A DNA stretch of 39,354 nt from an uncultured Opitutia bacterium (GTDB lineage: Bacteria > Verrucomicrobiota > Verrucomicrobiia > Opitutales > Opitutaceae): assembly GCA_903820035.1 (NCBI GenBank), contig CAIJFT010000220.1, forward strand, positions 1 to 39,354, in the 5' to 3' direction. Every line of letters starts with the position of its first letter. The first letter of the stretch is position 1. Under the pieces are notes generated by a model. That model made no database searches, had not been told where the DNA came from, and worked only from the letters and a program-made list of their open reading frames with translations. Positions 8,341-39,354 of this stretch are shown one piece after another. The translations under genes were made by a program, and so were the position numbers.

Positions 8341-8357
8341 ACTCTTTCGACCCCATC

Positions 8358-10019: not shown

Positions 10020-10083
10020 AGGCCAAGCCGATGCCCGTGCCGCTGCTCAAGGTCTTGCCGGCGCCAAACGTGCTCCTTTCCTG

Positions 10084-22477: not shown

Positions 22478-25400
22478 ATGTTATCTCCTGTCATGAAATC
22501 AGCTCTCGTGTCCTCGGGCCTGACCGGCCTCTTCGCGATTTTCGGCGCCACGACCGCCATCGCTCAATCCATTCCGGCTGTTGGTGCGCCCGCATCCGAT
22601 GCCGTGCTGCTCACCCCCTTCGAAGTCTCCTCGGCCAAGGACACCGGCTACGCGGCCACGGAGACACTCGCCGGCACGCGCATGCGCACGAACCTCCGCG
22701 ACGTCGGCGCCTCGCTCACGATCCTGACGCCGGAGTTCATCCGCGACCTCGGCGTGAATTCATTCGAGCAAGCACTGCTCTACACCCCGAGCGTTGACTC
22801 AACCGAGGGTGACAACACGGACGCCAATCGCGCGAGCGGCACCCAGATGCGTTTCGGCACCGGCCAGTCGTACTCGATCCGCGGTTTCAACACCAACGCC
22901 GGCAATCAATCGATCTCCCACGACTTCTTCACCGCCCTTGAGCCGACGGATAACTATAACCTTGAGCGCATCACGCTCTCGCTCGGACCCAACGCCCTGC
23001 TCATCGGCGTCGGTAATCCGCAAGGCACCGCCGTCACGTCCACGAAGCGCGCCCAATTGCAGCGGCGGAAAACGGAAGTCCAGACGCAGGCGGATACGAA
23101 TGGCTCGCGGCGTATCGCGATCGACCACAATCAGCCGCTCATTAAAGACAAACTGGGCTTTCGCCTGAACGTGCTGCACGACGAAGCCCGCGAGTTCCGC
23201 AAATACGAAGGCAAGAACCAGGAGCGCCTCACCCTCAGTGTTTCCGCCAAGCCTTGGGCCAACACCCGGCTCACGCTCAATCACGAGAGTTATTCCCTCG
23301 GCACCAACACCTCGAGTTTGGTGTGGGGTTTCGACGGCGGGGCCTTGCGCTGGGCGGCCGCCGGCAAACCGACGATCGATTTTGTGCCGGCAGGCCAGAC
23401 CTGGACCGCCACGCGGCCGTATGTAGACGCCGCCGGGAAACCCATTCCGGTCGCACGCGGGGTGGTTGACCCCGACGGCTTGGTCGACTCCCGCAACGAT
23501 TTCGACCCGAACCTGGTCTTGGGGCAGATCACCGGAAACACCCAAGTCTACACGGTCGGGCTCAACCTGCCGAATCCGATGATCAACACCCGCTATCAGG
23601 GCCAGTTGTCGGCGGCGACTTTTGGCGGCGTCTCCAGCCCCAACTACCAATCCGCCAACCCCTGGGCGATGTTCGGTCTCAGCAAGAGCACGAATCTCAA
23701 CGGTGGGACGTGGGCCGATCCTTCCTCCGCCCAACACGGCCGCTGGAGCCAGCTCATGCTGGAGCAAAAACTCGCGGAAGGACTCTTCCTCGAATTGGGC
23801 GGCAACCTGGCGCTCTACAACCAGTCGCAGGCTCCGAACTTTTTCACGACCGTCACGATTGATCCCAACCGCTACCTCCCCGACGGAACACCCAACCCCG
23901 GCTACCTCGTCCCTTACGCCGAGAACAACCAGATGCAGTTTCGTCCGATCAAGAATCGCTCCGCGGAGTATCGCGGCACGCTGTCCTACGAACTCGATTT
24001 GACCAAACACCACCGCTGGTTCGGCAAACACAATTTCGCGGGGCTCTACCAGACCACGCGCTCGGACGCTGACCAGGATCTCACCCGCGTATTTAATCTC
24101 GCCACCGTTGGCCTGCCCGCGGCCGGCGGCTGGTCCGGCGATGCCGTCAACGGCGCGAACGCCCTGCTCACCCGCGCATATTTCGTCAACGGCAACGTGC
24201 CCGTCCTCCCCGACTCCGTGCAGGTGCTCAATCATCTCGCCCAGCTCAACAGCTATGGGAAATTACTGGGCGCGACGGCCAACGAGTCCGCCCCGGTCAA
24301 CCTCAGTCGGATCTCGTTTCTCAACGCCCTCAAAAGCAAGTTCACCTCGACGGCCTTTTCCCTCGGCTGGCAGGCCCGCTGGTTCGACGGGCGCCTGATC
24401 ACCGTCGCCGGTTACCGGGCCGACGACACCAAGAGCTACGGCGTACCCACTGTCCGCAACGTCGCCAACCCCGCCATAGCCGGCTCCGCGACTGACCCAC
24501 TGAAGCAGACTTTCGCCCTCGCCCAGGACGTTCCTTACAACGACCAGCCCTCGATCGTCGCCAACGGGCAGTCCCGCACGTACGGCGGCGTCTATCACGT
24601 GCTGCCCTGGCTCTCGCTCACCGCTAACCAGTCGAGCAACTTCCTGCCGGTGCCGAATGCCTCGTGGGTCGACCCGCTCGGCCGAGCGGCCCCCAATTCC
24701 CTCGGCAAAACCACGGACTACGGCGTGCGCCTCTCGCTCCTCCAAGGCCGGTTGGCGCTCGGTGTAAGTCAATTTACCACGTCGGCCGACAACCAAGCCC
24801 GCAACGCCAACGCCAGCGTCACCGGCACGCGCAACATTCTCGCTCGCCTGCGGACCAACTACAAAGTCTCCGGCGACTCGCATTTCACGGATCTGGCCGA
24901 AGCCGGCGGCTATCCGGTGGATACCGGCAACACCTCCGACACCTGGAGCTACGTCGCCAAAGGCTACGAGATGAATCTGGTCTACAATCCCTCGCGGAAC
25001 TGGCGCGTCTCGCTCTCCGGCAGCGTCAATACCAACAAGCTCGGCACGCACTTGGCCGCCGTCGGCGCCTACCTTAACACCGATTCGAAGTTCCAGGGTT
25101 TGGGCACCTGGAAGAAGCTCGCCGCGGACCTGCGCAAGATCGAGGCCGGGCAAGCTGCTCCGTCCTTCGATCTCAACCCGGCGAATGCCACCGCCCGCGC
25201 CCAGGCCGGGGCGGACGCGCTCTACCTTGAGCAACAAATCGCCGCCCAGGAGAAGAGCTATCTCGACGACGTCGCGCTCACCGGTGTCACCACCGCGCGC
25301 AACGGCAAGTATGCGTTCAACGGACTCATCACCCGGGTCTTTAACGACGGCGTGCTCAAAGGCTGGACGCTCGGCGGCAACTTCCGCTGGCGCAGCGAAA

Positions 25401-25714
25401 ACACCATCGGCTACCAGCGGCTCACGGACCCGTCCGGCGTACCCAACGGCCGCGTTGATGTGAGCCGCCCGCTGTTCGGCGATCCCTTCTGGGATCTCGG
25501 GGCGATGGTTTCCTATCAGCGCCGCATCTTCGGCAATGTGAACCTCCGCACCCAGCTGAATATCCAGAACCTCCCCAACTGGCAGGCCCCGCGATTGGTG
25601 AGATCGGACTACGACACCAACGCGGTCTACGGTGCCACCAACGCCATCGTCCCGGTGCTCTGGGAACTGCGCCGCCCGCGAAATTACGTCCTCACCGCGA
25701 CGTTTGAATTCTAG
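22478..25714 (+). CDS. TonB-dependent receptor, FhuE/FecA-like class without N-terminal extension
   Basis: Starts are possible at ATG 22478 (1078 residues) or ATG 22493 (1073 residues); the signal peptide (ending IAQ) works with both, and the frame remains open upstream to 22334 without a sensible start. The motif VLLTPFEVS (43-51) sits at the TonB-box position. The plug (about 60-190) has VGASLTILTPEFIRDLG, YSIRGFNTN, YNLERITLSLGPNALLIG and NPQGTAV, then a long barrel ending TFEF. It is most like the receptors at 14426 and 33512, not the two with regulatory-like domains. It is followed by an EF-hand sulfatase after 82 bp, which suggests an oligosaccharide ligand. That link is inferred from position. 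Confidence 0.94.
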   Translation: MLSPVMKSALVSSGLTGLFAIFGATTAIAQSIPAVGAPASDAVLLTPFEVSSAKDTGYAATETLAGTRMRTNLRDVGASLTILTPEFIRDLGVNSFEQALLYTPSVDSTEGDNTDANRASGTQMRFGTGQSYSIRGFNTNAGNQSISHDFFTALEPTDNYNLERITLSLGPNALLIGVGNPQGTAVTSTKRAQLQRRKTEVQTQADTNGSRRIAIDHNQPLIKDKLGFRLNVLHDEAREFRKYEGKNQERLTLSVSAKPWANTRLTLNHESYSLGTNTSSLVWGFDGGALRWAAAGKPTIDFVPAGQTWTATRPYVDAAGKPIPVARGVVDPDGLVDSRNDFDPNLVLGQITGNTQVYTVGLNLPNPMINTRYQGQLSAATFGGVSSPNYQSANPWAMFGLSKSTNLNGGTWADPSSAQHGRWSQLMLEQKLAEGLFLELGGNLALYNQSQAPNFFTTVTIDPNRYLPDGTPNPGYLVPYAENNQMQFRPIKNRSAEYRGTLSYELDLTKHHRWFGKHNFAGLYQTTRSDADQDLTRVFNLATVGLPAAGGWSGDAVNGANALLTRAYFVNGNVPVLPDSVQVLNHLAQLNSYGKLLGATANESAPVNLSRISFLNALKSKFTSTAFSLGWQARWFDGRLITVAGYRADDTKSYGVPTVRNVANPAIAGSATDPLKQTFALAQDVPYNDQPSIVANGQSRTYGGVYHVLPWLSLTANQSSNFLPVPNASWVDPLGRAAPNSLGKTTDYGVRLSLLQGRLALGVSQFTTSADNQARNANASVTGTRNILARLRTNYKVSGDSHFTDLAEAGGYPVDTGNTSDTWSYVAKGYEMNLVYNPSRNWRVSLSGSVNTNKLGTHLAAVGAYLNTDSKFQGLGTWKKLAADLRKIEAGQAAPSFDLNPANATARAQAGADALYLEQQIAAQEKSYLDDVALTGVTTARNGKYAFNGLITRVFNDGVLKGWTLGGNFRWRSENTIGYQRLTDPSGVPNGRVDVSRPLFGDPFWDLGAMVSYQRRIFGNVNLRTQLNIQNLPNWQAPRLVRSDYDTNAVYGATNAIVPVLWELRRPRNYVLTATFEF

Positions 25715-25796
25715 TTCCGGTCGCGAGCGGCACCCGGCCCCCGAACCGTTGTCGCCGGAATACTCGGTCAACGCGTCATCCCCTTAAAACCATCTC

Positions 25797-27404
25797 ATGC
25801 GTCGCCTTACCTGCGCCCGATTCTTCCTGCTCGTCCTTCTTTCGGTTTCGGCCGTCCTCGCGGCCCAGAAGGAACCCGCCCCGCGCCCGAACGTCGTCTT
25901 CATTTTCGCCGACGACTGGGGTTGGGGCGATCTTTCCGCCCACGGACACCCCTGGCTGAAGACGCCGCACCTCGACCGGCTGGCGCGCGAGGGAACTGAT
26001 TTTCACCAGTTCAATGTCCTTAATCCCGTGTGCTCGCCGAGTCGCGCCGCCGCGATGACCGGAATGTTTCCCTCGCGCTTCAGTATTCACCAGCACTTCG
26101 CGGCCCCCGAGCAAAACCAGGCCCGCGGCATGCCGGACTGGCTCGACGCCCGCGCCCCGACCGCCGCGCGTTTTTTCCAAAAGGCCGGATACCGTACGGC
26201 GCACTTCGGCAAATGGCATCTGACCAATCGCAACACGCACGGCGCGCCCGTCCCCAACGCCTACGGCTTCGACGAGTTCGCCGTCTTCAACGGCGGCGCC
26301 GAAACCGCCTCCGCCGATCTGCACGCGACACCCGACAACGCCGCGAGGTTCATCGCCGCAAACAAGGCGCGACCGTTCTTCATCAACGTCTGGCTCCACG
26401 AGAGCCATCTGCCGCACGTACCCACGCAAGTCTCGCTGGAAAAATGGGCGCACCTTGACGCGCAGAAGCGCGTTTACGCCGCTGTGATCACCGACGGTGA
26501 CAACGCCGTCGGTCGCGTGCTCGATGCGCTCAAGTCCGCCGGCATCGAGGAAAACACCATCGTGATTTTTTCCAGCGACAACGGCCCCGAGACCACCGCA
26601 CCGAAATCCCAGCTCAGTTCCCGCGACGACGATGCCGGCGTCACCGGCTACGGCGGCTACTACAGCATCGGGTCCACCGGTGGCCTCCGCGGCGAGAAAC
26701 GCAGCCTCTTCGAAGGCGGCGTGCGCGTGCCCTTCCTCGTGCGTTGGCCGGGGCACACTCCCGCCGGGGCGACCAACAACAGCACGGCGTTCACGGCCGT
26801 CGACTTGCTGCCGACCCTCTGCGCCGCCGCGGAAATCTCGCTGCCCTCCGACTATCGGGGAGACGGTGAAAACCTGCTCGCCGCTTTCCACGGCCAACCC
26901 GTCCGGCGCACGCGGCCGATTTTCTGGGAATGGACCGGCAAGGCGGCCGAACCCGATTGGTGGCCGCGACTCGCCGTGCGCGACGGCGATTGGAAACTCG
27001 TCCTCGGCGCCACGGCGCAGCGCGTCGCTTTGCATCGAGTCACCACCGACCGCGCTGAAGTCGTCGATCTGGCCCAGGAGAACCCCGCCATCGTGGCCCG
27101 ACTCACCCAACTCGCCCTTGCGTGGAAAAGCACGCTGCCCACCTCGGTTGATACGTCGTGCCTCAGCGTCGCCGACCGGGCCGCCGCACCGGGCGCGCCC
27201 AAGGCCCCCGCCAAGAAAGCCAGTATCGACCGCGCCGCCGCCTTTGCCCGCATGGACACCAACCACGACGGCGTCCTCACGCTCGAGGAATACGTCGCCG
27301 GCCTGAACGGCGCCGCGAACCTCGAACAGCGTTTCAAAAACTTCGACAAAAACGGCGACGGGAAACTCAGCCGGGAGGAATTCGTGACGCCGTCCGCAAA
27401 ATAA
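25797..27404 (+). CDS. Sulfatase with C-terminal tandem EF-hands
   Basis: A 535-residue secreted sulfatase with a signal peptide at 1-23. Active-site parts: D39-D40 (FADDWGWGD), formylglycine site C79-S-P-S-R83, HFGKWHL, HESHLPH and SDNGPE. It is of the general arylsulfatase-A type and differs from the SDHGEMLG type at 8358, yet both end in the same kind of module. Here EF-hand loops lie at about 487-498 (DTNHDGVLTLEE) and 517-528 (DKNGDGKLSREE), after a Lys/Ala/Pro linker. Calcium binding is likely; the role may be stability or surface attachment. It stands between a receptor (82 bp upstream) and a fucosidase (35 bp downstream), so sulfate removal probably precedes fucose release. Confidence 0.94.
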   Translation: MRRLTCARFFLLVLLSVSAVLAAQKEPAPRPNVVFIFADDWGWGDLSAHGHPWLKTPHLDRLAREGTDFHQFNVLNPVCSPSRAAAMTGMFPSRFSIHQHFAAPEQNQARGMPDWLDARAPTAARFFQKAGYRTAHFGKWHLTNRNTHGAPVPNAYGFDEFAVFNGGAETASADLHATPDNAARFIAANKARPFFINVWLHESHLPHVPTQVSLEKWAHLDAQKRVYAAVITDGDNAVGRVLDALKSAGIEENTIVIFSSDNGPETTAPKSQLSSRDDDAGVTGYGGYYSIGSTGGLRGEKRSLFEGGVRVPFLVRWPGHTPAGATNNSTAFTAVDLLPTLCAAAEISLPSDYRGDGENLLAAFHGQPVRRTRPIFWEWTGKAAEPDWWPRLAVRDGDWKLVLGATAQRVALHRVTTDRAEVVDLAQENPAIVARLTQLALAWKSTLPTSVDTSCLSVADRAAAPGAPKAPAKKASIDRAAAFARMDTNHDGVLTLEEYVAGLNGAANLEQRFKNFDKNGDGKLSREEFVTPSAK

Positions 27405-27439
27405 CCCGCGCACCGCACGCGACACCGCTCACCATTACC

Positions 27440-29230
27440 ATGACGCCCTCGTCCGCCCGCACCGCCGGCCTTCTCCTCGCTGTTGCCGTGCTCACGGCTC
27501 AGCCCGGCCGCGCCGCCGCACCTTCCGCCGCCGAGCTATCGATGGACCAGATGTGGGGCGCCACCACCGCCCTGCCGGGCCTCGATTCCTCCGATCGCGT
27601 CGCGCTCTTCCGCGACGGCAACTACGGCATGTTCATCCACTGGGGCATTTACTCCCACCTCGGCGGGCAATGGCAGGGCCAGACGTTTTACGGGATCGGC
27701 GAATGGATCAAACGGCAGATGAAAATCTCCGAAGCCGACTACATGGCCGAGGCGAGAAACTTTAACCCGACCGCCTTTGATGCCCGCGAAATCGTCCGCG
27801 TCGCGCAAGCCGCGGGGATGAAATGGATCATCATCACCTCGAAGCACCACGACGGCTTCGCGATGTTCAAGTCGGCTCACCCCTTCAACATCGTCGATGC
27901 CTCACCGTTTGCCCGGGACCCGATGAAGGAACTTGCCGCCGCGTGCCGCGCCGCGGGGCTCGGTTTCGGTTTCTATTATTCACACAATCAGGACTGGACC
28001 GCCCCCGGCGGCAACAATGGTCCCAAGCAAAACACCGACGGCTCGCCCGCCTCCTTCGATCACTACTTCCGCGAAAAATGCTACCCGCAGGTGAAGGAGA
28101 TCTGCACGCAGTACGGCCCGCTGAATTTCGTGTGGTTCGACACGCCGGGCAACATGCCCAAGGAGCACGCCGAGAAACTCGCCGCCCTCGTCCGCGAGAC
28201 CCAGCCGGGCGCGCTTCTCTGCAGCCGCGTCGGCTTCGGCCTCGGCGACTACGTCAGCAAGGGCGACATGGAAGTCCCGCCCCGCCGGATGGAAGGCCTG
28301 TGGGAAACCTGCGACACCACGAACGATTCCTGGGCCTACGCTTGGTATGACCAAAACTGGAAAGACCAGAAAGAGATCCTGCACCGTCTCGTGGCCACCG
28401 TCGGCCGCGGCGGCACCTATCTGCTCAACGTCGGCCCCGATGGCACGGGTCGCATTCCCGCCCAAGCGACCAAGTACCTCCTCCAGGCCGGTGCCTGGAT
28501 CAAACGTTACCCGCAGGTCGTGTACTCCGCCGGCGCCTCCCCGTGGGACCACGCGCAACCGTGGGGCGACGTCACCACCTCCGGGCACACGCTCAACCTC
28601 GTCGTCTTCGATTGGCCCCACGACGGCCGGTTGATGCTGGCCGGACTCGAAACCGAAATCGCCGCCGCCGGCGTCGTCGCCGGCGGCAAACTGCTCCCGG
28701 TCACGTGGAAAAAACGCGGGCCATGGACCGAACTCCAACTCCCCGCCGCCCCGCCCGATCGCCCCGCCTCGGTTGTCGCCGTCCGGTTGCAGGCCGCCCC
28801 CCACGTTGACCAAACGCTCGGCGTGCATCCGAACTTCCCCACCCGCCTCCTCGTCGAATTTGCGGCAGTGAACGACGCCACCAAAAAAGAAATTCGCTGG
28901 ATGGAGAAGTTCGGCGAGTGGAAGGCGGCTACCCAAGTCAGTGATTGGAAAACCGGCGGTCATGCCGTCTGGACCGTCAACGTCGCCGCCGCCGGCGACT
29001 ACCAGCTCGACCTAAACTACAAGGGTAACGGCAAACTCGTCTGGCACGTCGAGACTGACGAAGGCGTGAAGCTCCAGAACCAACAAAACTCCTCGCCCCT
29101 TTATCAGGCGCACACCTTCGGGCTACTGACCTTCAAGACCGCCGGCCGCCACACGATCGCGGTCTCGCTCGTCGATGGCCCGCGCGACCAAGCGAGCCTC
29201 CAGGCCATCTGCCTCCGCCCCGTCGAATGA
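27440..29230 (+). CDS. Alpha-L-fucosidase, family GH29, with C-terminal beta domain
   Basis: The ATG at 27440 gives a signal peptide (1-27, ending GRAAA) and 596 residues. GH29 hallmarks are present: GMFIHWGIYS (63-72), TSKHHDGF (133-140), FGFYYSHNQDW, and the nucleophile Asp in FVWFDTPG (D234). WETCDTTNDSWAY and TYLLNVGPDGTG follow. The enzyme removes terminal alpha-L-fucose with retention of configuration, probably in the periplasm. After the barrel, residues about 460-596 form an extra beta-rich region (KTGGHAVWTVNVAAAGDYQL, HTIAVSLVDGP), which could be a carbohydrate-binding module. The stop overlaps the start of the next gene by 4 bp (ATGA). With five other sulfatases nearby, sulfated fucan or a fucosylated sulfated glycan is the likely substrate. 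Confidence 0.94.
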   Translation: MTPSSARTAGLLLAVAVLTAQPGRAAAPSAAELSMDQMWGATTALPGLDSSDRVALFRDGNYGMFIHWGIYSHLGGQWQGQTFYGIGEWIKRQMKISEADYMAEARNFNPTAFDAREIVRVAQAAGMKWIIITSKHHDGFAMFKSAHPFNIVDASPFARDPMKELAAACRAAGLGFGFYYSHNQDWTAPGGNNGPKQNTDGSPASFDHYFREKCYPQVKEICTQYGPLNFVWFDTPGNMPKEHAEKLAALVRETQPGALLCSRVGFGLGDYVSKGDMEVPPRRMEGLWETCDTTNDSWAYAWYDQNWKDQKEILHRLVATVGRGGTYLLNVGPDGTGRIPAQATKYLLQAGAWIKRYPQVVYSAGASPWDHAQPWGDVTTSGHTLNLVVFDWPHDGRLMLAGLETEIAAAGVVAGGKLLPVTWKKRGPWTELQLPAAPPDRPASVVAVRLQAAPHVDQTLGVHPNFPTRLLVEFAAVNDATKKEIRWMEKFGEWKAATQVSDWKTGGHAVWTVNVAAAGDYQLDLNYKGNGKLVWHVETDEGVKLQNQQNSSPLYQAHTFGLLTFKTAGRHTIAVSLVDGPRDQASLQAICLRPVE

Positions 29231-30456
29231 AACTCCGCTTCGCGCTCCTGGCGGCGCTGTCCTCGCTCACCAGCTCCGGCGCCGACCCCGCTCGCGACTT
29301 CGCCGGGCTGCGGGCGCAGGTCGTCGCCCTCGGAGAACTAATGGCTCCTCCCGCCGTCCACGGCGCTGAAGCCTTCGCTCCCGCCGGCAGCATCAAGCCC
29401 CTTTTTTTCGACGGCCTCCCGTATCAGGGAAAAGCGACCCGCGTCTTCGCGTGGCTCGGGCTGCCGTCCGAGCGAACGGGCAAGGTTCCCGGCATCGTGC
29501 TCGTGCACGGCGGCGGCGGCACGGCCTTCAAGGAGTGGGTGCAGCAGTGGAACGCGCACGGCTTCGCCGCACTTTCCATCGCCGTCGAGGGTCAGACCGA
29601 CGAACGCATTCCCGGCGCCCCGCCCGGCGCGCAGTGGAAACGCCACCCCGCCGGGGGCCCAGCGCGCCAGGGCATTTACGGGGATGCAGCCGAGCCGCTG
29701 GCCGACCAATGGATGTATCACGCGCTCGCGGACACGATCCTTGCCCATTCCCTCCTCCGCTCGCTGCCCGAGGTGGACGCCACCCGCGTTGGCGTCAGCG
29801 GCATTTCCTGGGGCGGTGTCATCACGAGCACGGTCCTCGGCCTCGACGCCCGGTTCGCCTTCGGGATTCCCATCTACGGCTGCGGCCATCTCTTCGACGC
29901 CGCCAACCAATACGGCCGCGCCTTGGGCGAAAGTGCGCTCTACCGCGAAGTCTGGGATCCCGTGCGCTACCTTCCCCGGGCCCAGCTGCCGGTGCTGTGG
30001 CTCTCGTGGCCGGAGGACGCCCATTTCCCGCTCGATTGCCAGGCCGCCAGCTACCGGGCGGCGCCCGGGCCTCGGCTCGTTGCGCTCCTCCCCGGCATGA
30101 AGCACTCGCATCCCGCCGGTTGGAATCCGCCCGACGGTTACGCCTTCGCCGCCTCCGTCGTGCGGGAGGGCAAACCGTGGTGCACGCAAACGCGTCTCAC
30201 CCTCCAGCCGGACCGCGCCGAAATTGAATTCACCAGCACCAAACCGCTTGCCCGCGCGACCTTGATCTCGACCACCGGCTCCGGCTTCACCGGCAGTCGC
30301 CGGTGGACCGAATCACCGGCCCGGATCAGACCGCAGGGCGACACCTGGATCGTCACGACGGAGTTACCCGCCGGGACGACCGCGTGGTTCGTGAACGCGC
30401 GCAGCGGGGCACTCACCGTCAGCTCCGATTACCAGGAAACCAACGCCGCCCGATGA
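29227..30456 (+). CDS. Secreted alpha/beta-hydrolase, acetyl-xylan-esterase/dienelactone-hydrolase-like
   Basis: A 409-residue protein with a short signal peptide (1-19). The alpha/beta-hydrolase signature is complete. HGGGG (94-98) forms the oxyanion region, and the nucleophile S194 lies in G-I-S-W-G. An acidic residue is available in PEDAHFPLD (D264 or D270), and the catalytic His is in MKHSHP (H293 or H295). It resembles AXE1/CE7 and S9-like esterases that remove acyl groups from sugars; a peptidase role is less likely in this setting. About 100 residues after the hydrolase fold form a beta-rich tail. It overlaps the fucosidase before it and the putative glycosidase after it by ATGA on both sides, so the three are almost certainly made together. 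Confidence 0.85.
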   Translation: MKLRFALLAALSSLTSSGADPARDFAGLRAQVVALGELMAPPAVHGAEAFAPAGSIKPLFFDGLPYQGKATRVFAWLGLPSERTGKVPGIVLVHGGGGTAFKEWVQQWNAHGFAALSIAVEGQTDERIPGAPPGAQWKRHPAGGPARQGIYGDAAEPLADQWMYHALADTILAHSLLRSLPEVDATRVGVSGISWGGVITSTVLGLDARFAFGIPIYGCGHLFDAANQYGRALGESALYREVWDPVRYLPRAQLPVLWLSWPEDAHFPLDCQAASYRAAPGPRLVALLPGMKHSHPAGWNPPDGYAFAASVVREGKPWCTQTRLTLQPDRAEIEFTSTKPLARATLISTTGSGFTGSRRWTESPARIRPQGDTWIVTTELPAGTTAWFVNARSGALTVSSDYQETNAAR

Positions 30457-31595
30457 AATCCGCTCCGCTCCTCGCGGCCGCGCTTCTCTTGCTCCTCCCG
30501 CCGGGCGCCGCCGCGTCCGCCGCAACTCCCGCGCCCGCCGTCGCCTTCCCCGGTTTCACCTGGGACCGCGTGCCCCTCACTCTCCACTTCGGCCAACGCA
30601 CTGCCGACCTGACCGACGCCGAGATCGAATTTCTGGCCGGACAAAGCCGCTTCATCGTCCTGGAAAAGAGCCACGGTCTCGCGGCGCACGGCAGCACGGA
30701 AGCCGGGATTGCCGCCACCGCGCGCCGCATCGTGCAGCGCAACCCCGCGGCCAAGGTCCTCTTCTATTTCAACGCCTTCATCAACTGGCCCGGCTACGAC
30801 GCGTTCAAGACCTACCGCCCGGAGTGGACCCTCCGCACCCCGGCCGGCGAAGTCGTCAGCCACCCTTCCGGCACACCGCGGCCGGATCCGTCGAACGCGG
30901 AGTTTCGCGAATGGTGGTCCGAGGTCGTCGCCGCGGCCAACCGCGGTGCGCCGCTTGGCGGCGTATTTGCCGACGCCCTACCGCAGGCGCTTTCTCCGGG
31001 CCTCGCCAAGCAGGTCGGCGAGGCCAAGGCCCGCGCGATCGTGGCGGGCCTTCGGGAAATGTTGGCGTTAACCAAGCGCAAACTCGGCGCGAACCGCCTG
31101 GTGGTCGTGAACGGACTTCGCACCACCGATTTCCGTGAAATCCTCGATTGGGAGGGCATTGACGGCGTGATGATCGAGCACTTCGGGGCTTTCAAAACCG
31201 ACTCGCCCGCCGACCTCAAGGCCGACCTCGATTCGCTCGCGCTCGCCGCGGCCAAGGGGAAATTCGTCGTGCTGAAGGGCTGGCCCGGTTTCACGTGGCT
31301 GGACCGGGAAATGATGCAGCGCCCCCGCGACGAATTGCAGCGGCTCGCCCTTGAGCACCTGACCTTTCCGCTGGCGTGCTTCCTCGTCGCCGCCCAACCC
31401 GGTTCGCACTTCTGCTACTCGTGGGGCTATCGCGAGGACCACGGCGTGTTCGAACCTTACCCCGCATTAAATCGACCGCTCGGCCCGCCGCTGGCGGACG
31501 GCAAATGGCAGGGTCTCACCGCCACCCGCGAGTTCGCACATGCTTCCGTCCGGGTCGATCTCACGACCAAGCAGGCCACCATCCGCTGGCGGTAG
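30453..31595 (+). CDS. Putative glycoside hydrolase (GHL15-like TIM barrel), secreted
   Basis: The ATG at 30453 overlaps the stop of the esterase (ATGA) and opens a signal peptide (1-23); 380 residues. The blocks FTWDRVPLTLHFG, IVLEKSHG, AKVLFYFNAFINW and WDREMMQ-like LDREMMQ resemble uncharacterised putative glycoside hydrolases of the GHL type. These are predicted to be TIM barrels. D174 (GVFADALPQ) and E242 (DGVMIEHFG) lie at the ends of likely strands and are the best candidates for a catalytic pair, by inference only. Tight coupling to a fucosidase and an esterase suggests it cleaves the same polymer or a linkage the fucosidase exposes. The true bond cleaved is unknown. Confidence 0.7.
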   Translation: MKSAPLLAAALLLLLPPGAAASAATPAPAVAFPGFTWDRVPLTLHFGQRTADLTDAEIEFLAGQSRFIVLEKSHGLAAHGSTEAGIAATARRIVQRNPAAKVLFYFNAFINWPGYDAFKTYRPEWTLRTPAGEVVSHPSGTPRPDPSNAEFREWWSEVVAAANRGAPLGGVFADALPQALSPGLAKQVGEAKARAIVAGLREMLALTKRKLGANRLVVVNGLRTTDFREILDWEGIDGVMIEHFGAFKTDSPADLKADLDSLALAAAKGKFVVLKGWPGFTWLDREMMQRPRDELQRLALEHLTFPLACFLVAAQPGSHFCYSWGYREDHGVFEPYPALNRPLGPPLADGKWQGLTATREFAHASVRVDLTTKQATIRWR

Positions 31596-31596
31596 C

Positions 31597-31805: not shown

Positions 31806-32366
31806 GTGAGTTCCCCGCCCCCCGATAACGATTCAACCACCGGCCCTTCGCGGCGCTGGTATCTGGAGGAGGTTCGTCCCCACGAACCCGCCCTGCGGGC
31901 CTGGCTGCGCGCCCGGTTTCCGTGGCTGACCGACGTGGACGATTTAGTCCAGGAGTCGGTGGCGCGACTCTGGCGTCGGTCGACCCGCTCCAACCTGCCC
32001 CCGGTGAGGTCGGCCAAGGCGACGCTGTACTCGATCGCCCGCAATGCCGCGGTGGACCAGGCCCGCCGGCACGCCGTGGTTTCGATCGAGCCTGTCGCTG
32101 ATCTTGCGTCCCTGGCCGTCTTAGATGGTGCCGACACCGTGGAAGCGGTCAGCACCCGGCAGGAACTCGAACTCCTCGCCGGCGCCATCCGCCAGCTTCC
32201 GACCCGCTGCCGCCAAGTGCTCACCCTCACCAAAGTCTACGGTCTCTCCGAACGCGAAGTCGCGGAGCGCCTCGGCATCTCCGAGCACACCGTCCGCACC
32301 CAGGTCGTCCGGGGCCTGGAGAAGTGCACCGACTATTTCCGGAGTCGGGGTATCACGCGGCCATGA
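31806..32366 (+). CDS. ECF-family RNA polymerase sigma factor (FecI-like)
   Basis: The GTG at 31806 is preferred (186 residues); a TTG at 31761 would add 15 residues with no similarity. Region 2 is seen in RAWLRARFPWLTDVDDLVQESVARLW and SIARNAAVDQARR, which bind core polymerase and the -10 element. Region 4 is seen in LPTRCRQVLTLTKVYGLSEREVAERLGISEHTVRTQV, a helix-turn-helix for the -35 element. The stop overlaps the start of the anti-sigma gene by 4 bp (ATGA at 32363-32366). Followed by FecR-like and STN-receptor genes, it forms a complete FecI-FecR-FecA-type set. In such systems the sigma factor is released or activated when the receptor binds its ligand. The target genes probably include the receptor and sulfatases downstream. 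Confidence 0.92.
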   Translation: MSSPPPDNDSTTGPSRRWYLEEVRPHEPALRAWLRARFPWLTDVDDLVQESVARLWRRSTRSNLPPVRSAKATLYSIARNAAVDQARRHAVVSIEPVADLASLAVLDGADTVEAVSTRQELELLAGAIRQLPTRCRQVLTLTKVYGLSEREVAERLGISEHTVRTQVVRGLEKCTDYFRSRGITRP

Positions 32367-33388
32367 ACGAGCCACTGGATGCCGCGGGGAAACGGATGCA
32401 ACGGCAGGCCGCCGAATGGCTGGCGCTGCGGCAGGCGCGCGGCTTCACTCCGGCGGAACACGCTGATTTCTCCGATTGGTGCGCGGCCGATGCGCGGCAT
32501 GCGCAGATTTTCGCGGAGGTCGAAAGGGCGTGGGGCACCCTGGATGGGCTGGCCCGTTATCCCCACTCGCCGGATGTCGCCGCGGACCCGGACTTGCTGC
32601 TCCCCGCCCGGCCCGCGCCCAAGGTGTTCCTCCCCCCCCGCCTCGCCCTCGCGGCGGCGGCGCTGGCGGTTTCAGTTGCCGTCGTGTGGAAGCCGTGGGC
32701 CGAGTCCAAACCCGTGCCACCTCCGGCCGTCGCGGCGGTCGACAGTCGGATCTTGCATTTGCCCGACGGCTCCGTCGTCGAACTCAACGTCGGTGCCCGG
32801 GTCGAGCCGGCGTTTACCCCCGCCGAGCGTCGGGTCAGGCTGCGGCAGGGCGAGGCGCACTTCACCGTCGCGAAGAATCCCGATCGTCCCTTCTGGGTCG
32901 AGGCCAACGGCGTCGCGGTGCGGGCCGTCGGCACCGCGTTCGACGTCCGGCTCGTCGGCGCATCCGTGGAAGTTTTGGTGACCGAGGGCACGGTCCAGGT
33001 TCACCCGCCCGTCGCAACCTCCGCTGCCGGATCCGCCCCGACCGCCTTGGTCAACGAGGGCCAGAAGACCGTCGTTTCCACCCGGCCGCAAAACACCGCC
33101 CCGGTCGTCGAATCGGTTCCGCTCGTCCTGCTCGACCAAGCTCTCGCCTGGCAATCCAGCCGATTCGTGTTCGACGCCATGCCGTTGGCCGACGTCGTGG
33201 AGCGCTTCAATCGGAGCGGAACGAACACCGTGCTCGTCCTCGACGACCCCGGTCTGGCGGCCCTGAAATTCAGCGGCCGCCTGCGGGCCGCGCCTGTCGA
33301 CCGGTTTGTCGAGGTGCTGGAGGCTAACTTCGGGATTCGGGCCGAGCGGCGCAGCGACGGTCGCATCATCCTCCGCCGGGCGCAGTAG
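32363..33388 (+). CDS. FecR-family membrane anti-sigma factor
   Basis: A 341-residue protein. The N-terminal cytoplasmic domain (about 10-55, AAEWLALRQARGFTP, FSDWCAADARHAQIFAEVERAW) is the sigma-binding DUF4880 type. One membrane helix lies at about 92-109 (rich in Ala, Leu and Val). The periplasmic FecR domain follows (about 120-225, with LPDGSVVELN, RRVRLRQGEAHFTV and VRAVGTAFDVR), then a C-terminal domain (about 255-341, ADVVERFNR and DRFVEVLEANFGI) that would touch the receptor's STN domain. It relays ligand binding by the receptor to the sigma factor. A run of eight C at 32632-32639 lies just before the codons for the membrane helix. A one-base slip there would leave only the cytoplasmic sigma-binding part. 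Confidence 0.92.
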   Translation: MNEPLDAAGKRMQRQAAEWLALRQARGFTPAEHADFSDWCAADARHAQIFAEVERAWGTLDGLARYPHSPDVAADPDLLLPARPAPKVFLPPRLALAAAALAVSVAVVWKPWAESKPVPPPAVAAVDSRILHLPDGSVVELNVGARVEPAFTPAERRVRLRQGEAHFTVAKNPDRPFWVEANGVAVRAVGTAFDVRLVGASVEVLVTEGTVQVHPPVATSAAGSAPTALVNEGQKTVVSTRPQNTAPVVESVPLVLLDQALAWQSSRFVFDAMPLADVVERFNRSGTNTVLVLDDPGLAALKFSGRLRAAPVDRFVEVLEANFGIRAERRSDGRIILRRAQ

Positions 33389-33417
33389 TCCTGGCAGCCG
33401 GAGTTTTTACCCGCGCC

Positions 33418-33447
33418 GGAAATTATTTAAACCGTTGTCCCTGCTTG
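33418..33447 (+). promoter_or_regulatory. Candidate FecI-type promoter for the STN receptor
   Basis: In the gap between the anti-sigma gene (stop 33388) and the receptor start (33512), GGAAAT at 33418-33423 equals the -35 element of FecI promoters. TGCTTG at 33442-33447, 18 nt further, shares four of six bases with the FecI -10 TCCTTT. The implied 5' leader is about 55-60 nt. This is a visual match in one place only. Confidence 0.35.
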
Positions 33448-33511
33448 GCGCCGGTTCGTCCGACTTAATACCGTCGCGGTGCTGCTCCCCGCTCGCGCGC
33501 CCACCCCACCC

Positions 33512-36500
33512 ATGCCCCCTTCGAACTTCGCGTTTACCGCCCCGACGTCCGGCTGCTTCGGCCGGCTGCTCCGCCTGGCCCTGCTCACGGTCAGTCTGGG
33601 CGTGTCCTTCTCCGGCGCCGCCGACACCGGGAAAATATCCTTCGACGTGCCCGCGGCCGATGCCGCCGTGGCGCTCAAGCAGTTCGCCGCCCAGGCCGGC
33701 CGCGACATCCTCTATCTGCCGGAATCCGTCCGCGGCACGAAAATGAATGCCGTCCGCGGCGACCTGACGCCGCGCGAGGCGCTCGACCAAATGCTTGCCG
33801 GCACCGCGCTGTCCGCGTCCGAGTCGAAGGACGGCATTTTAGCCGTGCGGCGGACATCGGACCCAAACGGAGCAACGGCGGCACCGTTGAAGGCGGACGG
33901 CAACCGCCCCGCTCCGATCGCAAGTGACGCGGACACCGTCACGCTCTCGCCTTTTGTCCTGTCCGCCGACAAGGACCACGGCTACAGCGCCGGCAGCACG
34001 TTGGCCGGCAGCCGCATCAAATCCCCGCTGAAGGATGTCGCCGCGCAGATCTCCGTTTTCACGCCGGAGCTGATGAATGATCTCGGCCTCACCAACCTCG
34101 AGGAGGTCTATCTCTACTCGACCAACGTCGAAGGCTATCTCGAATACACTCCCGGCGGGGATCAGGGCGTCGGCTTCGGGGCGCTGTCGCTCGTCAACAA
34201 CCATCAGCGCAACGACAGCCGGATCCGCGGCCTGGGGGCGGTGACGATCCTGCGCAGCTTTTTCGAGACGAGCTTCGATATCGACACGTACAACACCGAC
34301 CGCGTGACGATCGCGAGCGGACCGAACGCGATTCTGTTCGGCCTCGGCAACCCCGGCGGAGTGACGGACGCGAGCCTCAAGCAGGCGGAGTTTCGCGATC
34401 GCACCGCGCTCACCTACCGGCGGGACAACTTCGACGCGCACCGCGCCACCCTCGACGTCAACCGGGTGCTGTGGCCGAAGAAGGCCGCGCTGCGGATTGC
34501 CGCCCTCGACGCCAACAACCGCTCGTTTCGCCCGAACCACAGCGACGCGAACCGCCGCCTCTACGGCGCGGTGACTTTGAGGCCGCTGCCCGACACCACG
34601 ATCCGGTTGAACTCGGAGTGGGTGCAACGCGATGCTTCGCGCGCGTCGGCCGTGGTGGTGCACGACTATGTGAGCCCGTGGCTGGACGGCGGAAAACCGC
34701 AGTTCGACAATTCCGGCATCACCGCGGCGACCGCCGCCGCCACCGTGACCGGGCGCATCACCGCCGGCGGTCTCGCCCCGGTGCTGACGCGGAGCGGCAA
34801 CAACTCCATGGTCTTGATGGCCGGCAACACCCCGGGCAATCAGCCGGTCGGCAACTGGCTCAACTCGGTGAACGTGGTCGGGCTCCACACCAAGGCGCCC
34901 GTACTCCAGGATCAGGCCTACGAGTGGAGTTTGATCCGGCCCGAGGTGTTCAACCCGTACGCGAACATCTTCGGCGACGGCAACCTCGTGCGCGAACGCG
35001 GTCGCGTCCTCAACGCCTTCGTCGAGCAAAAGGTGACGCGTGACCTCTACGTCGAGGCGGGATTCGTGAAGGAACACGCCGTCACGCGCCAGGGGAGCTG
35101 GGTCGACGGCAACAACAGCTTCGACATCTTCGTCGATGCGAACCGGTTCCTGCCCGACGGCACGACGCCGAACCCGAACGTGGGCAAACTCTATTCCCAG
35201 TCGAATCCGCTCGGCAACCGCGGCTTCGATGATCGCCGCGAATCCCGCCTCACCGCGTCCTACCAGCTGGACTTTACCACCCGCTCCGGACCTGCCGCCT
35301 GGCTCGGACGCCACCGGTTCGCCGCGATGTATAGCTATTCCGACTACACGACCACGGCCCAGGCCTCCCGGCTGATCATGGCCGGAGCCCCGGGCTTTCT
35401 GTCGGCCGCGGCCAAAACCAACCTCGCCGACACCTCGCGGCTCGTGACCCTGCGCACCTACCTGGGCAACGGCGTCGACCATGTCAGTGCGCCGGTGCCG
35501 GGCGGAGCGCTCGACTTCAAGCCGGTGCTGAACCTGACGGGACCCGGCGGCGAGCCGTTCGAGGCGCGGATGTACGGCAACCCCGATGGTTCCTATCCCG
35601 TGGCCTCGGGCACCGAACAGAATGTCATCTCCCGCTCGCTGGCCGATCAAACCTACCTCCTCAAGGATCGCCTGATCGCGACCTACGGCTGGCGCGAAAG
35701 CCGCGTGCGGATGAAGACGTCCCTGGATACCGCCTCGACGACCGCCCAAGCCAACGGACTTTTCCCGAACCTGGAGAATACCCGCTTCGCGAATAACTGG
35801 GATTACTACGACAACGGCCAGTCCATCAACTGGGGCCTCGTCGGCCGTCCCTTGTCGTGGCTCTCCGTCCACTACGCCGAGTCCGAGAATTTCGCCATCC
35901 AGGCCAGCACGTGGTTCGATCCCTTTGGCCGGCCGATTCCCGGTTCCAACGGCACCGGCAAAGACTATGGCGTCAGCGTCAATCTGGCCGACGGCAAACT
36001 CAACCTGCGGGTCAACCGGTACGTGAACGACCAGAAGAACAGCCGGCCCGACAATACGATCAGCGCCGTGCGCACGATCCCGATGAACGTCGAGCGCCGC
36101 ATTTTGCAGGTCGCGCCGGGCACCCCGATGCTTGGCATGGACCTGAACCGCTACGGCAATGCCAATTACCAGATCACGAACACCTCGGAGGCCAAGGGCT
36201 ATGACATCGAAATGGCGGTGAACCCCACCGCCAACTGGCGCGGCGTCCTCAACGTCGGCCGCCAGCGCACCGAGACGCAGCTCGACGACACCTGGTGGAG
36301 TTGGGTCGAGCAGCGCCTGCCGGTCTGGAAAACGTTTGGCGCCGGCTGGGACACCGAACGCATCACCGCAGCCAGCGCGCTGACGATTCACAACCAATAC
36401 GACCAGTGGGTCGCCACCCAGCGGGACCCGCTGATCGCGAGCAACGGCATCATCGTGGCGAATCAGCGTGAATGGCGCGTGAGCGGAGTCCTGACCTACG

Positions 36501-36853
36501 CGTTCACCGAGGGCCGGCTCCGCGGTCTGACCGCCGGACTCGGCGGCCGGTGGCGCAGCCCCAACAACCTCGGCTACCAACTCACCACCCTGGCCAGCGG
36601 ACAGCGGGTGCTGGACCTCACGCGCCCCTTCAAGGGCGAAAGCGAGTTGGCGATCGATACGTTTGCGACCTACTCCCTGCGCAAGCTGGCGATCTGGCGG
36701 CTGAAGTCCGACTGGAAGCTGCAACTCAACGTACGGAATCTGTTCGACCAGCGGGGGCTCGTCCCGACGCAGGTTTTGACCACGGGCGCGCCTTCGATCT
36801 TCACCTTCCGCAGTCCGCGCCAGGTGATCCTTTCGCTGCAGACCGAATTGTAA
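33512..36853 (+). CDS. TonB-dependent transducer receptor with STN signalling domain (FecA-like)
   Basis: The ATG at 33512 is preferred over the GTG at 33479; 1113 residues with a signal peptide ending near residue 37. Residues about 42-113 are a secretin/TonB short N-terminal (STN) domain (ISFDVPAADAAVALKQFAAQ, ILYLPESVRG, LTPREALDQMLAGTAL). STN domains contact FecR-type anti-sigma factors in the periplasm. VTLSPFVLS (143-151) marks the TonB-box position, followed by plug and barrel with SRIRGLGAVTILR and TIASGPNAILFGLGNPGG. The protein ends in TEL, not an aromatic residue. It is the only receptor of the window whose complete N-terminus shows an STN domain, and it directly follows the sigma and anti-sigma genes. 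A sulfatase follows after 31 bp, so the ligand is more likely a sulfated glycan fragment than an iron chelate. Confidence 0.94.
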   Translation: MPPSNFAFTAPTSGCFGRLLRLALLTVSLGVSFSGAADTGKISFDVPAADAAVALKQFAAQAGRDILYLPESVRGTKMNAVRGDLTPREALDQMLAGTALSASESKDGILAVRRTSDPNGATAAPLKADGNRPAPIASDADTVTLSPFVLSADKDHGYSAGSTLAGSRIKSPLKDVAAQISVFTPELMNDLGLTNLEEVYLYSTNVEGYLEYTPGGDQGVGFGALSLVNNHQRNDSRIRGLGAVTILRSFFETSFDIDTYNTDRVTIASGPNAILFGLGNPGGVTDASLKQAEFRDRTALTYRRDNFDAHRATLDVNRVLWPKKAALRIAALDANNRSFRPNHSDANRRLYGAVTLRPLPDTTIRLNSEWVQRDASRASAVVVHDYVSPWLDGGKPQFDNSGITAATAAATVTGRITAGGLAPVLTRSGNNSMVLMAGNTPGNQPVGNWLNSVNVVGLHTKAPVLQDQAYEWSLIRPEVFNPYANIFGDGNLVRERGRVLNAFVEQKVTRDLYVEAGFVKEHAVTRQGSWVDGNNSFDIFVDANRFLPDGTTPNPNVGKLYSQSNPLGNRGFDDRRESRLTASYQLDFTTRSGPAAWLGRHRFAAMYSYSDYTTTAQASRLIMAGAPGFLSAAAKTNLADTSRLVTLRTYLGNGVDHVSAPVPGGALDFKPVLNLTGPGGEPFEARMYGNPDGSYPVASGTEQNVISRSLADQTYLLKDRLIATYGWRESRVRMKTSLDTASTTAQANGLFPNLENTRFANNWDYYDNGQSINWGLVGRPLSWLSVHYAESENFAIQASTWFDPFGRPIPGSNGTGKDYGVSVNLADGKLNLRVNRYVNDQKNSRPDNTISAVRTIPMNVERRILQVAPGTPMLGMDLNRYGNANYQITNTSEAKGYDIEMAVNPTANWRGVLNVGRQRTETQLDDTWWSWVEQRLPVWKTFGAGWDTERITAASALTIHNQYDQWVATQRDPLIASNGIIVANQREWRVSGVLTYAFTEGRLRGLTAGLGGRWRSPNNLGYQLTTLASGQRVLDLTRPFKGESELAIDTFATYSLRKLAIWRLKSDWKLQLNVRNLFDQRGLVPTQVLTTGAPSIFTFRSPRQVILSLQTEL

Positions 36854-36884
36854 CGCCGCCGGCATCGCCGCTTCGCCCCGTATC

Positions 36885-38375
36885 ATGAAATCCCTGGCAT
36901 CGCTGCTCGCGCTGTTGCTTTTCGCCCACGTTGCGCCCGCCGCGCCCCCGCCCGCCCCGCGGCCCAACATCCTGCTCATCGTCGCCGACGATCTCGGTTG
37001 GGGCGATGTGTCGTACCACGGCAGCCGGATTCCGACGCCGAATCTGGATCGCCTCATGCGCGAGGGCGTGGAACTCGATCACCACTATGTCATGCCCCAG
37101 TGCACGCCCACGCGGTCGTCGCTGCTGAGCGGAGTCTGGTCGAGCCGTTACGATCTCACCCACAGTCAGGGCAAGGCGGGCTCCGGATTTCCCGCAGGCC
37201 TCGTGCTCTTGCCGGAGCTGATGCGGTCCGCCGGCTACACTACGCTGCACGCGGGCAAGTGGCACGTCGGCCCGGCCGCGGGCCAGCGTCCCTGGGAGCG
37301 TGGCTTCGAACACACCTACGGCTCACTGCACGGCACCGTCTCGCCCTGGCACCACCTCGGCCGCCCCAATGCCCTCGGCGATTTTTGGCAGCGCAACGGC
37401 GAGCCCTTGACCGAGGAGGGCGTGCACACGACCGACCTGCTCACGAATCAGGCCATCACCTGGCTGCAGCAACAGGCGGGAAAACCACAGCCGTGGTTTC
37501 TCTACTTGGCGCACTTCGCGCCCCACACGCCCCTGGAGCCGCCGCCGGAGTGGCTGGCGAAATTCGCCGACACCAAATTCGCCGGCGACGAACCGGAAAG
37601 CGCCCGGGCGCGCCGTTACGCCGCCACCGTCGCCCACCTCGACGATGCGATCGGCCGCGTGATCGCCGCGCTCACGGCCACGGGTCAACGGGACAACACG
37701 CTCGTGATCTTCACCTCCGACAACGGCCCGCAGATCGTGCCGTGGGATCCCGCACAAAACGGCGGCACGTCCGGGGAGTTGCGCGGCTACAAGGCGACCA
37801 CCTACGAGGGCGGCATCCGCGTGCCCGCCTTCGCCTGGTGGCCCGCGCGCCTGCAGCCACGGAAATTTGCTCCTCCCGTCCTCGTGGTGGATTGGTTGCC
37901 GACCTTCGCCGCCTTGGCCGGGGCGTCCACGCCGGCAGGCCAAAAACTCGACGGTACCAATATCTGGCCCTGGCTCACCGGCACCGGCGAGCCGCCCGGG
38001 CACCGCGTGATCTACCAAAAATACCTCGGCGGCATGGCCGCCTTGCGCGACGGGGACTGGAAACTCGTGACGCGCGGCGAGAGCCGCTTCGCCCGTTCCC
38101 TGATGCTCGGCGAAAACCGCGGCGATGAACTCTTTAATATCACCCGGGATCCCTTGGAGCGCGAAGATCTCGCCGCGACGCAGCCGGAGGTGCTCGCGCG
38201 CATGCAGCGCTTGCTTGTTGAGCAAATGAAGGGCGACGCTCCCGCCCTTAACGATGGCGTGCCCCAATACTGGTGGTCGCGCTTCCCCGAACAACAACAG
38301 CGCATGGAACGTCGCACCGTAGAAGTGCAGCGCGCCCGGGAGTCGGCTAAAAGCGCGGCGACCAAGCGGCCCTGA
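36885..38375 (+). CDS. Sulfatase, arylsulfatase-B-like
   Basis: A 496-residue secreted sulfatase with a signal peptide at 1-20. Active-site parts: D35-D36 (VADDLGWGD), formylglycine site C73-T-P-T-R77, HAGKWHVG, HFAPHTPL and SDNGPQ, with K around GYKATTYEGG. The LDHHYVMPQCTPTRSSLLSG block resembles arylsulfatase B/I/J and related sugar-6- or sugar-4-sulfatases. The C-terminal tail (about 455-496) is charged and lacks the EF-hands seen in two other sulfatases here. It starts 31 bp after the STN receptor, so it is probably in the regulon of the ECF sigma factor. The stop TGA shares one base with the ATG of the next sulfatase. Confidence 0.94.
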   Translation: MKSLASLLALLLFAHVAPAAPPPAPRPNILLIVADDLGWGDVSYHGSRIPTPNLDRLMREGVELDHHYVMPQCTPTRSSLLSGVWSSRYDLTHSQGKAGSGFPAGLVLLPELMRSAGYTTLHAGKWHVGPAAGQRPWERGFEHTYGSLHGTVSPWHHLGRPNALGDFWQRNGEPLTEEGVHTTDLLTNQAITWLQQQAGKPQPWFLYLAHFAPHTPLEPPPEWLAKFADTKFAGDEPESARARRYAATVAHLDDAIGRVIAALTATGQRDNTLVIFTSDNGPQIVPWDPAQNGGTSGELRGYKATTYEGGIRVPAFAWWPARLQPRKFAPPVLVVDWLPTFAALAGASTPAGQKLDGTNIWPWLTGTGEPPGHRVIYQKYLGGMAALRDGDWKLVTRGESRFARSLMLGENRGDELFNITRDPLEREDLAATQPEVLARMQRLLVEQMKGDAPALNDGVPQYWWSRFPEQQQRMERRTVEVQRARESAKSAATKRP

Positions 38376-39354
38376 TGCAACTCCCCACCGCCCCTCTCAT
38401 GCGAACGTTCTCCCCCTGGTTCGGCCTCCTGCTCGCTGGCGCACTGACCTGCCTCGTCGGCCCGGTCGCGGCCGCGCCAGCCTCCCGCCCGCCGAATATC
38501 CTGTTCATCCTCGCCGACGACCTCGGGTGGACCGGCCTGAGTTGCTACGGCAACAAGGATATCCCCACCCCGCACCTCGACCGCCTCGCCGCCCAGGGCA
38601 TGCGGTTCACGCAGGCGTATGCCGACGCCCAATGCTCGCCCACCCGCGCGGCGTTTCTCTCCGGCCAATACGGCGCGCGCAGCGGCGTCGTGAAGGTGAT
38701 TGCCGAGAAGGAGCCACCGAAGGCGTACCTGCGTCCGCCCGAGGCCAACCTCGCGCTCGCTCCCGACGTAGCCACCCTGGCCCGCACGCTGCGGAGCGCC
38801 GGCTACACCACCGGGCTAAGCGGGAAGTGGCACGTCGCCAACAACGCCTTTGTCGCGCCGCTGCGAAAGCGCGACGACGGAAAATATTTTGACCGCTACG
38901 GCTTTGATTTCGCCGGCGCGGCCAATCCGGCCGAGCAGCGCGAGGACAAGGCGGTGACCGCGATCACCAGCGACATCATCGGCTTCATCGAGCAGAACCG
39001 GGACCGGCCCTGGTTCGCCTACGCCGCCCATCTCACCCCGCACGCACCGTTCGCCGCCCCGCCGGCCCTCGTCGACAAACACGTCGCGCGCGGCTTCAAG
39101 CGCAGCAGCACGCCCGGCGGCCGTTTCGCCGAGCGCACCACCGCCAACTACCTCGCGATGCTCGAACACATGGACAACGAGGTCGGGCGTTTGCTGCAGC
39201 GTCTCGACGCACTCAAACTCACCGATCGCACCGTCGTGATTTTCGCGGGTGACAACGGCAGCCTCTCCCGCGTGACCGACAGCGGCCGGCTGCGCGAAGG
39301 CAAGGGCTCACCCTACGAGGGCGGCACCCGCGTTCCGCTCATCGTGCGCTGGCC
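38375..39354 (+). CDS. Sulfatase, N-terminal part (3' end outside the window)
   Basis: An open frame running off the right edge. It begins at ATG 38375 (TGATG overlap with the previous stop, suggesting coupling) or at the in-frame ATG 38399, which sits closer to the signal peptide. With the first start, D48-D49 (LADDLGW), the formylglycine site C87-S-P-T-R91, SGKWHV, HLTPHAPF and GDNGSLSR are visible. The last is a variant of the usual SDNGG, keeping D and N. It is a different subfamily from the sulfatase upstream. A tandem pair behind the signalling cassette suggests they remove different sulfate positions from one glycan. The C-terminal subdomain is not in the window. Confidence 0.92.
   Translation, partial: MQLPTAPLMRTFSPWFGLLLAGALTCLVGPVAAAPASRPPNILFILADDLGWTGLSCYGNKDIPTPHLDRLAAQGMRFTQAYADAQCSPTRAAFLSGQYGARSGVVKVIAEKEPPKAYLRPPEANLALAPDVATLARTLRSAGYTTGLSGKWHVANNAFVAPLRKRDDGKYFDRYGFDFAGAANPAEQREDKAVTAITSDIIGFIEQNRDRPWFAYAAHLTPHAPFAAPPALVDKHVARGFKRSSTPGGRFAERTTANYLAMLEHMDNEVGRLLQRLDALKLTDRTVVIFAGDNGSLSRVTDSGRLREGKGSPYEGGTRVPLIVRW

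Follow-up and report, generated by a model that had tools for sequence, protein, structure and literature searches.

The distal end of the window probably encodes a switch that senses a sulfated glycan at the cell surface and in response raises the expression of its own receptor and of two sulfatases. The window is the whole of contig G000:C220 (39,354 bp), which belongs to a genome of 6.05 Mb in 469 contigs. It is very likely that the cassette serves cell-surface signaling, and rather likely that a glycan is the signal. Direct observations comprise the domains of the proteins and their folds, the distances between the genes, the association of the STN domain with sigma and FecR genes, and a promoter-like element. 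The finding is a known kind of signaling, located in a lineage that is SusD-free in the genomes checked, on a receptor lineage that tends to have sulfatases. The preliminary description of this DNA is partly supported, being a good observation in a partly wrong frame.

Organization of the Locus

Five genes lie on one strand, encoding an ECF sigma factor, a FecR-type anti-sigma, a TonB receptor with STN and plug domains, and two sulfatases (Table 1). All five were found in the order and with the spacing first described. The FecR ATG stands at 32363 and the sigma reading frame ends at 32366, so that the two genes overlap by 4 bp. The gap between the receptor and sulfatase 1 is 31 bp, and the two sulfatases share one base (spacing −1 bp). 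Sulfatase 2 is incomplete, since the contig end cuts the gene together with whatever comes after it. The neighboring "fucosidase operon" of the preliminary description is real, and comprises a receptor, a sulfatase, a GH29 fucosidase, an AXE1-like esterase, and GHL15 upstream of the cassette.

Table 1. Positions of the features in the window
Feature	Position	Strand	Basis
Upstream glycan block, same strand	22334..31595	+	Pfam; STN absent from its receptor
Upstream block, receptor without STN	22334-25714	+	Pfam
Upstream block, sulfatase	25797-27404	+	Pfam
Upstream block, GH29 fucosidase	ends 29230	+	Pfam
Upstream block, AXE1-like esterase	29227-30456	+	Pfam
Upstream block, GHL15	ends 31595	+	Pfam
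ECF-type sigma factor	31806..32366	+	Pfam Sigma70_r2, Sigma70_r4_2
FecR-type anti-sigma, ATG start	32363..33388	+	Pfam FecR + DUF4880; Foldseek
Candidate ECF promoter GGAAAT-N12-TGTC	33418..33439	+	FecR-receptor gap; word counts + matrix
TonB-dependent transducer receptor, STN + plug	33512..36853	+	Pfam; AF2; Foldseek
Cys-type S1 sulfatase 1	36885..38375	+	Pfam Sulfatase 4.6e-61; CTPTR signature
Cys-type S1 sulfatase 2, cut by contig end	38375..39352	+	Pfam Sulfatase 8.7e-48; CSPTR signature

Three further sulfatases are located at 4822-10019. The contig has 6 sulfatases compared with 0.66 expected from the roughly 102 sulfatase genes in 6.05 Mb, an excess that is descriptive only, because the contig was not randomly chosen. 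The three sulfatases are followed by an 848-residue protein (9979-12525) whose only match is a weak one to cytochrome c in the C-terminal part.

Architecture of the Signaling Proteins

The sigma reading frame opens at TTG 31761, and the GTG at 31806, the start given in the preliminary description, is another possible start. Sigma regions 2 and 4 are both present (Sigma70_r2, 6e-10; r4_2, 6e-16). The FecR-type protein matches the Pfam families FecR (2.4e-15) and DUF4880 (7.6e-10), and a hydrophobic stretch at residues 93-108 was judged by eye to be a membrane segment. The top Foldseek match of its AlphaFold2 model (pLDDT 84) is the C-terminal signaling domain of PupR from Pseudomonas (6ovk, E 2e-17); the model also matches a Parabacteroides anti-sigma factor. 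The receptor, which starts at GTG 33479 or ATG 33512, has 1113 residues and matches STN (1.3e-8) and Plug (8.2e-6). For its AlphaFold2 model (pLDDT 83), FpvA (2o5p) ranks first in Foldseek, FecA takes ranks 38-40, and the first SusC appears at rank 44.

Three features of a FecI/FecR/FecA system were found, namely sigma regions 2 and 4, a FecR with DUF4880, a membrane segment, and a periplasmic FecR domain, and a TonB receptor with STN at its N-terminus; for a fourth, a sigma-dependent promoter before the receptor, there is a candidate element defined statistically. Together with the PupR-type fold of FecR and the FpvA-type fold of the receptor, these Pfam domains bear out the FecI-FecR-FecA architecture proposed earlier. 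In the Fec, Pup, and Fpv systems, a ligand at the receptor is signaled by STN to FecR, freeing the sigma factor. The window cassette has the same three partners as FecI/FecR/FecA, PupI/PupR/PupB, and FpvI/FpvR/FpvA of Proteobacteria, and resembles the last two in the match of its FecR to PupR and of its receptor to FpvA with the signaling (STN) domain. Unlike these systems, it adjoins sulfatases, and its receptor is longer than FpvA (1113 residues compared with 772 in chain 2o5p_A).

Comparison with Glycan Utilization Loci

In the ECF-sigma/anti-sigma SusC/D loci of Bacteroidota, an STN receptor is described as the route by which glycan genes are signaled (PMC7782687, PMC3243724), and in the sigma-controlled SusCs an NTE domain is reported to precede STN (PMC7782687). 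The window locus shares with them the sigma/anti-sigma pair, the STN receptor, and the glycan genes. It differs in that neither SusD nor an NTE match is present, and in that its barrel is nearer to FpvA than to SusC. The cassette receptor gave no Pfam match to the carboxypeptidase-like NTE domain, which two other receptors in the window have. SusD-like_3 (PF14322) was found 0 times in this genome, and SusD_RagB (PF07980) in 0 of the 141 genomes of the class that were sampled, this one included; the Bacteroides control was positive in both searches. Orellana et al. report no SusCD genes in their Verrucomicrobiota MAGs (PMC8857213). The absence of SusD from this genome, from the class genomes, and from published MAGs indicates that it is normal here, and we reject it as a special feature of the locus, since it is common to all the class genomes sampled. 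The proposal of a SusD-less version of the Bacteroidota SusC/D cassette does not hold, given the missing NTE match, the Foldseek ranks of FpvA and SusC, and the class-wide absence of SusD.

A further comparison is offered by CUT loci, in which a TonB receptor is accompanied by glycan genes without SusD, and which He et al. describe in freshwater Verrucomicrobia MAGs (PMC5615132). As in the CUT loci of Xanthomonas and of freshwater Verrucomicrobia, a SusD-free receptor stands beside degradative enzymes. CUT loci also include an inner-membrane sugar transporter and a regulator. The window locus has a regulator, and a scan of 20 ORFs, one probably no gene, from the third gene of the window to the contig end found no such transporter. 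The main text of the CUT account mentions no sigma factor, FecR, or anti-sigma (PMC5615132), whereas the window has them.

Co-occurrence of STN with Sigma and FecR

Of 75 receptors with STN, 70 have a sigma or FecR gene close to their 5′ end, compared with 2 of 32 without it, a difference that is inflated because loci were chosen by STN or FecR (60 among the best-scoring of the 104 rows in which FecR matched five genomes, and 20 on account of a match extending in the direction of the STN region). These counts cover 107 distinct receptors whose upstream sequence is known for 2.5 kb or more, with 29 edge cases set aside. Both exceptions without STN adjoin a short STN-bearing ORF, so they may be split genes. 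Less affected by the choice of loci is the count within this genome, where FecR lies within 3 kb of 8 of 9 receptors with a Pfam STN match and of 2 of 142 others; the two others have STN according to the local profile. Also less affected is a tree of 40 receptors for which the STN portion of the sequences was left out. Its supported branches require 9 or more changes of STN. In 7 of 9 independent pairs, sigma/FecR follows STN, and in 0 it goes the opposite way (p 0.016). Genes in the relatives were called with a codon-bias picker, with starts unrefined, and the labels SULF, SIG, FECR, TBDT, and STN were assigned with local profiles whose seeds are proteins of this genome.

Sigma, FecR, and STN look like an exchangeable front end of receptors. 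It is conceivable, and we suggest it tentatively, that in Opitutaceae sigma, FecR, STN, and the promoter-like element described below constitute a plug-in sensor that glycan receptors have repeatedly gained and lost, the receptor and sulfatases staying in place. Such a sensor would be a SusD-free, FpvA-type counterpart of the sigma-controlled polysaccharide loci of Bacteroidota, in many copies per genome. If the module truly moves between receptors, STN swaps should rewire glycan sensing.

Thirteen FecR matches were found in this genome, and sigma, FecR, and an STN receptor occur together at 10 of the 13 loci (one cut by a contig end). In five related genomes, the window FecR gives between 15 and 26 match rows, a count in which fragments are included. 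The window cassette is one among many such switches in the genome and looks like a known device in a less familiar use. The neighbors of the cassettes in this genome include sulfatases (2 loci), a pyruvyl-transferase-like protein, an FAD oxidoreductase, a metallo-beta-lactamase fold, Gfo/Idh/MocA, and a phytase-like protein. In the relatives, 34 of 40 first-downstream genes were scanned (the other six being four receptors and a pair of ORFs, 111 and 120 aa long), yielding 5 sulfatases and 4 BNR_2 proteins, while the remainder include GH16, pectate-lyase-like, GHL15, FGE, and cytochrome-type genes.

Distribution of the Sulfatases

Both sulfatases carry C-x-P-x-R, the cysteine form of the S1 formylglycine sulfatase signature C/S-x-P-x-R, and the genome has 2 FGE-type matches. 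The nearest solved chains are S1_19 and iota-carrageenan sulfatases for sulfatase 1 and the S1_16 kappa-carrageenan sulfatase 9fo1 for sulfatase 2. These relatives may serve as a lead towards sulfated galactans, not as a substrate assignment. The best matches of the two sulfatases (L088_4, 73-75%, and L088_6, 72-74%, respectively) lie in one locus (L088) of genome G182. There, with a third sulfatase between them, they come after a receptor that is 56-58% identical to the window's and lacks both STN and any sigma/FecR in its vicinity.

In this genome, a sulfatase lies within 4.5 kb downstream of 2 of 10 cassette receptors and of 12 of 141 others (Fisher p 0.23), where random placement gives about 4%. 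In the relatives, a sulfatase lies within 5 kb of 11 of the 54 STN receptors that were located by way of FecR, against a background of 25 of 141 (p 0.68) that comes from this one genome and is incomplete (150 scored out of 181 candidates, with the window receptor added by hand) and whose distances were taken from domain matches, those in the relatives being taken from gene ends and an assumed place of the plug. The count is 9 of 36 for cassette receptors with little sequence missing. Because sulfatases are not commoner near cassettes than near other receptors, we reject the cassette as a sulfatase-specific system.

The receptors related to the window's differ from this background: 12 of 19 have a sulfatase nearby compared with 25 of 141 (p 7e-5), although the relatives may be sulfatase-richer than the own-genome background, and the contig of L090, which is among the 19, measures 4 kb. 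A sulfatase is present near 4 of the 7 that have STN and 8 of the 12 that lack it. In tree pairs, sulfatase and cassette change the same way in 1.3 and the other way in 3.4 of 8 on average (p ~0.6). The sulfatases go with the receptor lineage and not with the sigma/FecR module. A link to sulfatases is supported for the receptor lineage; the claim that the cassette as such is wired to them is not supported. Conservation of sulfatases in relatives, set beforehand as a test, was observed for that lineage.

The receptor relatives come from a search that scored no more than 3 candidates in each genome; two of them are named, from "Opitutae bacterium" and "Opitutus sp. GAS368" MAGs. The relative of highest identity (L066, 76%) is without STN, sigma/FecR, and an adjacent sulfatase; its receptor is followed by genes for an amidohydrolase and an FGE-like protein. 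The receptors of L067 (71%) and L069 (55-57%) keep STN, but neither sigma/FecR in the vicinity nor the promoter-like element accompanies them; they are possibly orphaned or served in trans. L068 duplicates L067, with an equally long contig and the same receptor, and was left out. The two nearest relatives of the window receptor disagree, STN being present in L067 and absent in L066. The lack of STN in L066 and of nearby sigma/FecR in L067 would fit a window cassette that is degenerate or recently assembled and has no working signal path. Yet its reading frames are intact, its codon-position bias is normal, and the expected domains are all there, which makes such a cassette very unlikely.

A Candidate Promoter in the FecR-Receptor Gap

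The gap between FecR and the receptor contains a promoter-like element of the general form GGAAAY-N12-YGTC. The words GGAAA-N14-GTC occur in 6 of 64 FecR-receptor gaps, the window's included, where no single spacing exceeded 3 in 200 rounds of shuffling, and GGAAA-N15-TC in 11 of the 64 compared with at most 5, the element having first been spotted by eye in this counting set and several word pairs and spacings having been tried. A weight matrix built from six other loci scores 7.2 or more before 25 of the 77 receptors with STN in the fetched loci and before 0 of the 40 that lack it. Without the five training sites, the counts are 20 of 72 and 0 of 40 (p 6e-5), with a cut-off set on shorter stretches than those scored and with near-copies (L083/L084) remaining. 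The other 52 of the 77 STN receptors score under the cut-off, and different sigmas might read different sites.

Among the 23 matrix hits in the window, only that at 33418 (score 12.5) lies outside a gene; the best hit, at 26831, is inside a sulfatase ORF. The exact pattern occurs 2 times compared with 0.4 expected, and the other copy is inside a gene. We regard the element as a candidate promoter read by the cassette sigma. An extension of the regulon to the fucosidase block was rejected, as no element was found there (scores −2.1 at 22100-22420 and 4.9 at 25700-25830). Autoregulation of the sigma gene was likewise rejected, with no element before it and a best score of −2.6 at 31500-31830. 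A sigma-70 promoter scan of 30000-39354 found 0 sites, with 0.6 expected.

The element also bears on whether the sigma/FecR pair instead acts in trans, controlling another receptor or a wider regulon while the local sulfatases are expressed separately. The STN receptors of L067 and L069 would suit such an arrangement, cross-talk is conceivable among the 13 FecR matches of this genome, and the presence of sulfatases is not tied to the cassette on the tree. Regulation in trans is nevertheless rather improbable, considering that the sole non-genic hit in the window lies directly in the cassette and that STN and local sigma/FecR change together on the tree.

Signal and Proposed Mechanism

We propose that the ligand is a sulfated glycan, judging from the sulfatases, the fucosidase block, and the related loci. 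Points against a glycan switch include the receptor fold, which is nearest to siderophore receptors, the other cassettes in this genome, which front many other genes, and the relatives L066, L067, and L069, the STN receptors under the matrix cut-off, and the sulfatase counts in tree pairs described above. In both fold and sequence, the receptor is closest to FpvA, FoxA, and FhuE, and Blanvillain et al. describe FecI/FecR systems as mostly tied to iron (PMC1790865). The cassette could then be a true iron (siderophore) system that stands by chance before unrelated sulfatases. This is unlikely in view of the 31-bp and −1-bp spacing to the sulfatases and of the sulfatases beside 12 of 19 related receptors. 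Furthermore, the window has no Fur box (E. coli consensus, up to 3 mismatches, which is a weak test), and no iron family was found among the 10 genes scanned beside the cassettes of this genome, 2 of which matched no family. The sulfatases beside the related receptors, the missing Fur box, and the cassette neighbors agree with the glycan setting, rather than an iron one, that was suggested at the outset.

In the glycan sensor that we favor, the direction of signaling would be that of the Fec, Pup, and Fpv systems. An oligosaccharide would bind the outer-membrane receptor, and the periplasmic STN domain would contact the FecR-like protein, which sits in the inner membrane, at its C-terminal domain, a contact between STN and anti-sigma that has been described (PMC7782687). 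The FecR-like protein would then release or activate the ECF sigma factor, and transcription would start just past 33439, so that receptor and sulfatase levels would go up jointly. This genome has at least 150 plug-domain matches (150 scored out of 181 candidates), or some 25 receptors per Mb, next to roughly 102 sulfatase genes. If the proposal is true, it would explain how SusD-free Verrucomicrobiota choose which glycan genes to express. STN receptors would be sigma-driven and non-STN receptors not, with the element giving a candidate promoter sequence.

Related Sigma/FecR Loci

The window sigma is nearest to those of L102 (58%) and L121 (52%) among the fetched loci. L102, the nearest relative of the sigma/FecR pair, combines an STN receptor with an esterase, a receptor-fused sulfatase domain, and an upstream fucosidase. 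The fused ORF (L102:61-4521, minus strand; G054:C26:1560-6020) may be either a real fusion or an assembly artifact. No second copy was found in 200 genomes of the family (2 candidates scored in each), and no plasmid record covers 80% of the ORF. It has 1487 residues, with the sulfatase at 68-436 joined to a TonB receptor whose plug lies at 624-740 and whose barrel extends to 1435; by eye, the linker has no evident signal peptide. In another locus of the same genome (L105, G054:C25:165000-183040), four FecR matches, four sigma-labeled genes, and several STN receptors are gathered within 18 kb.
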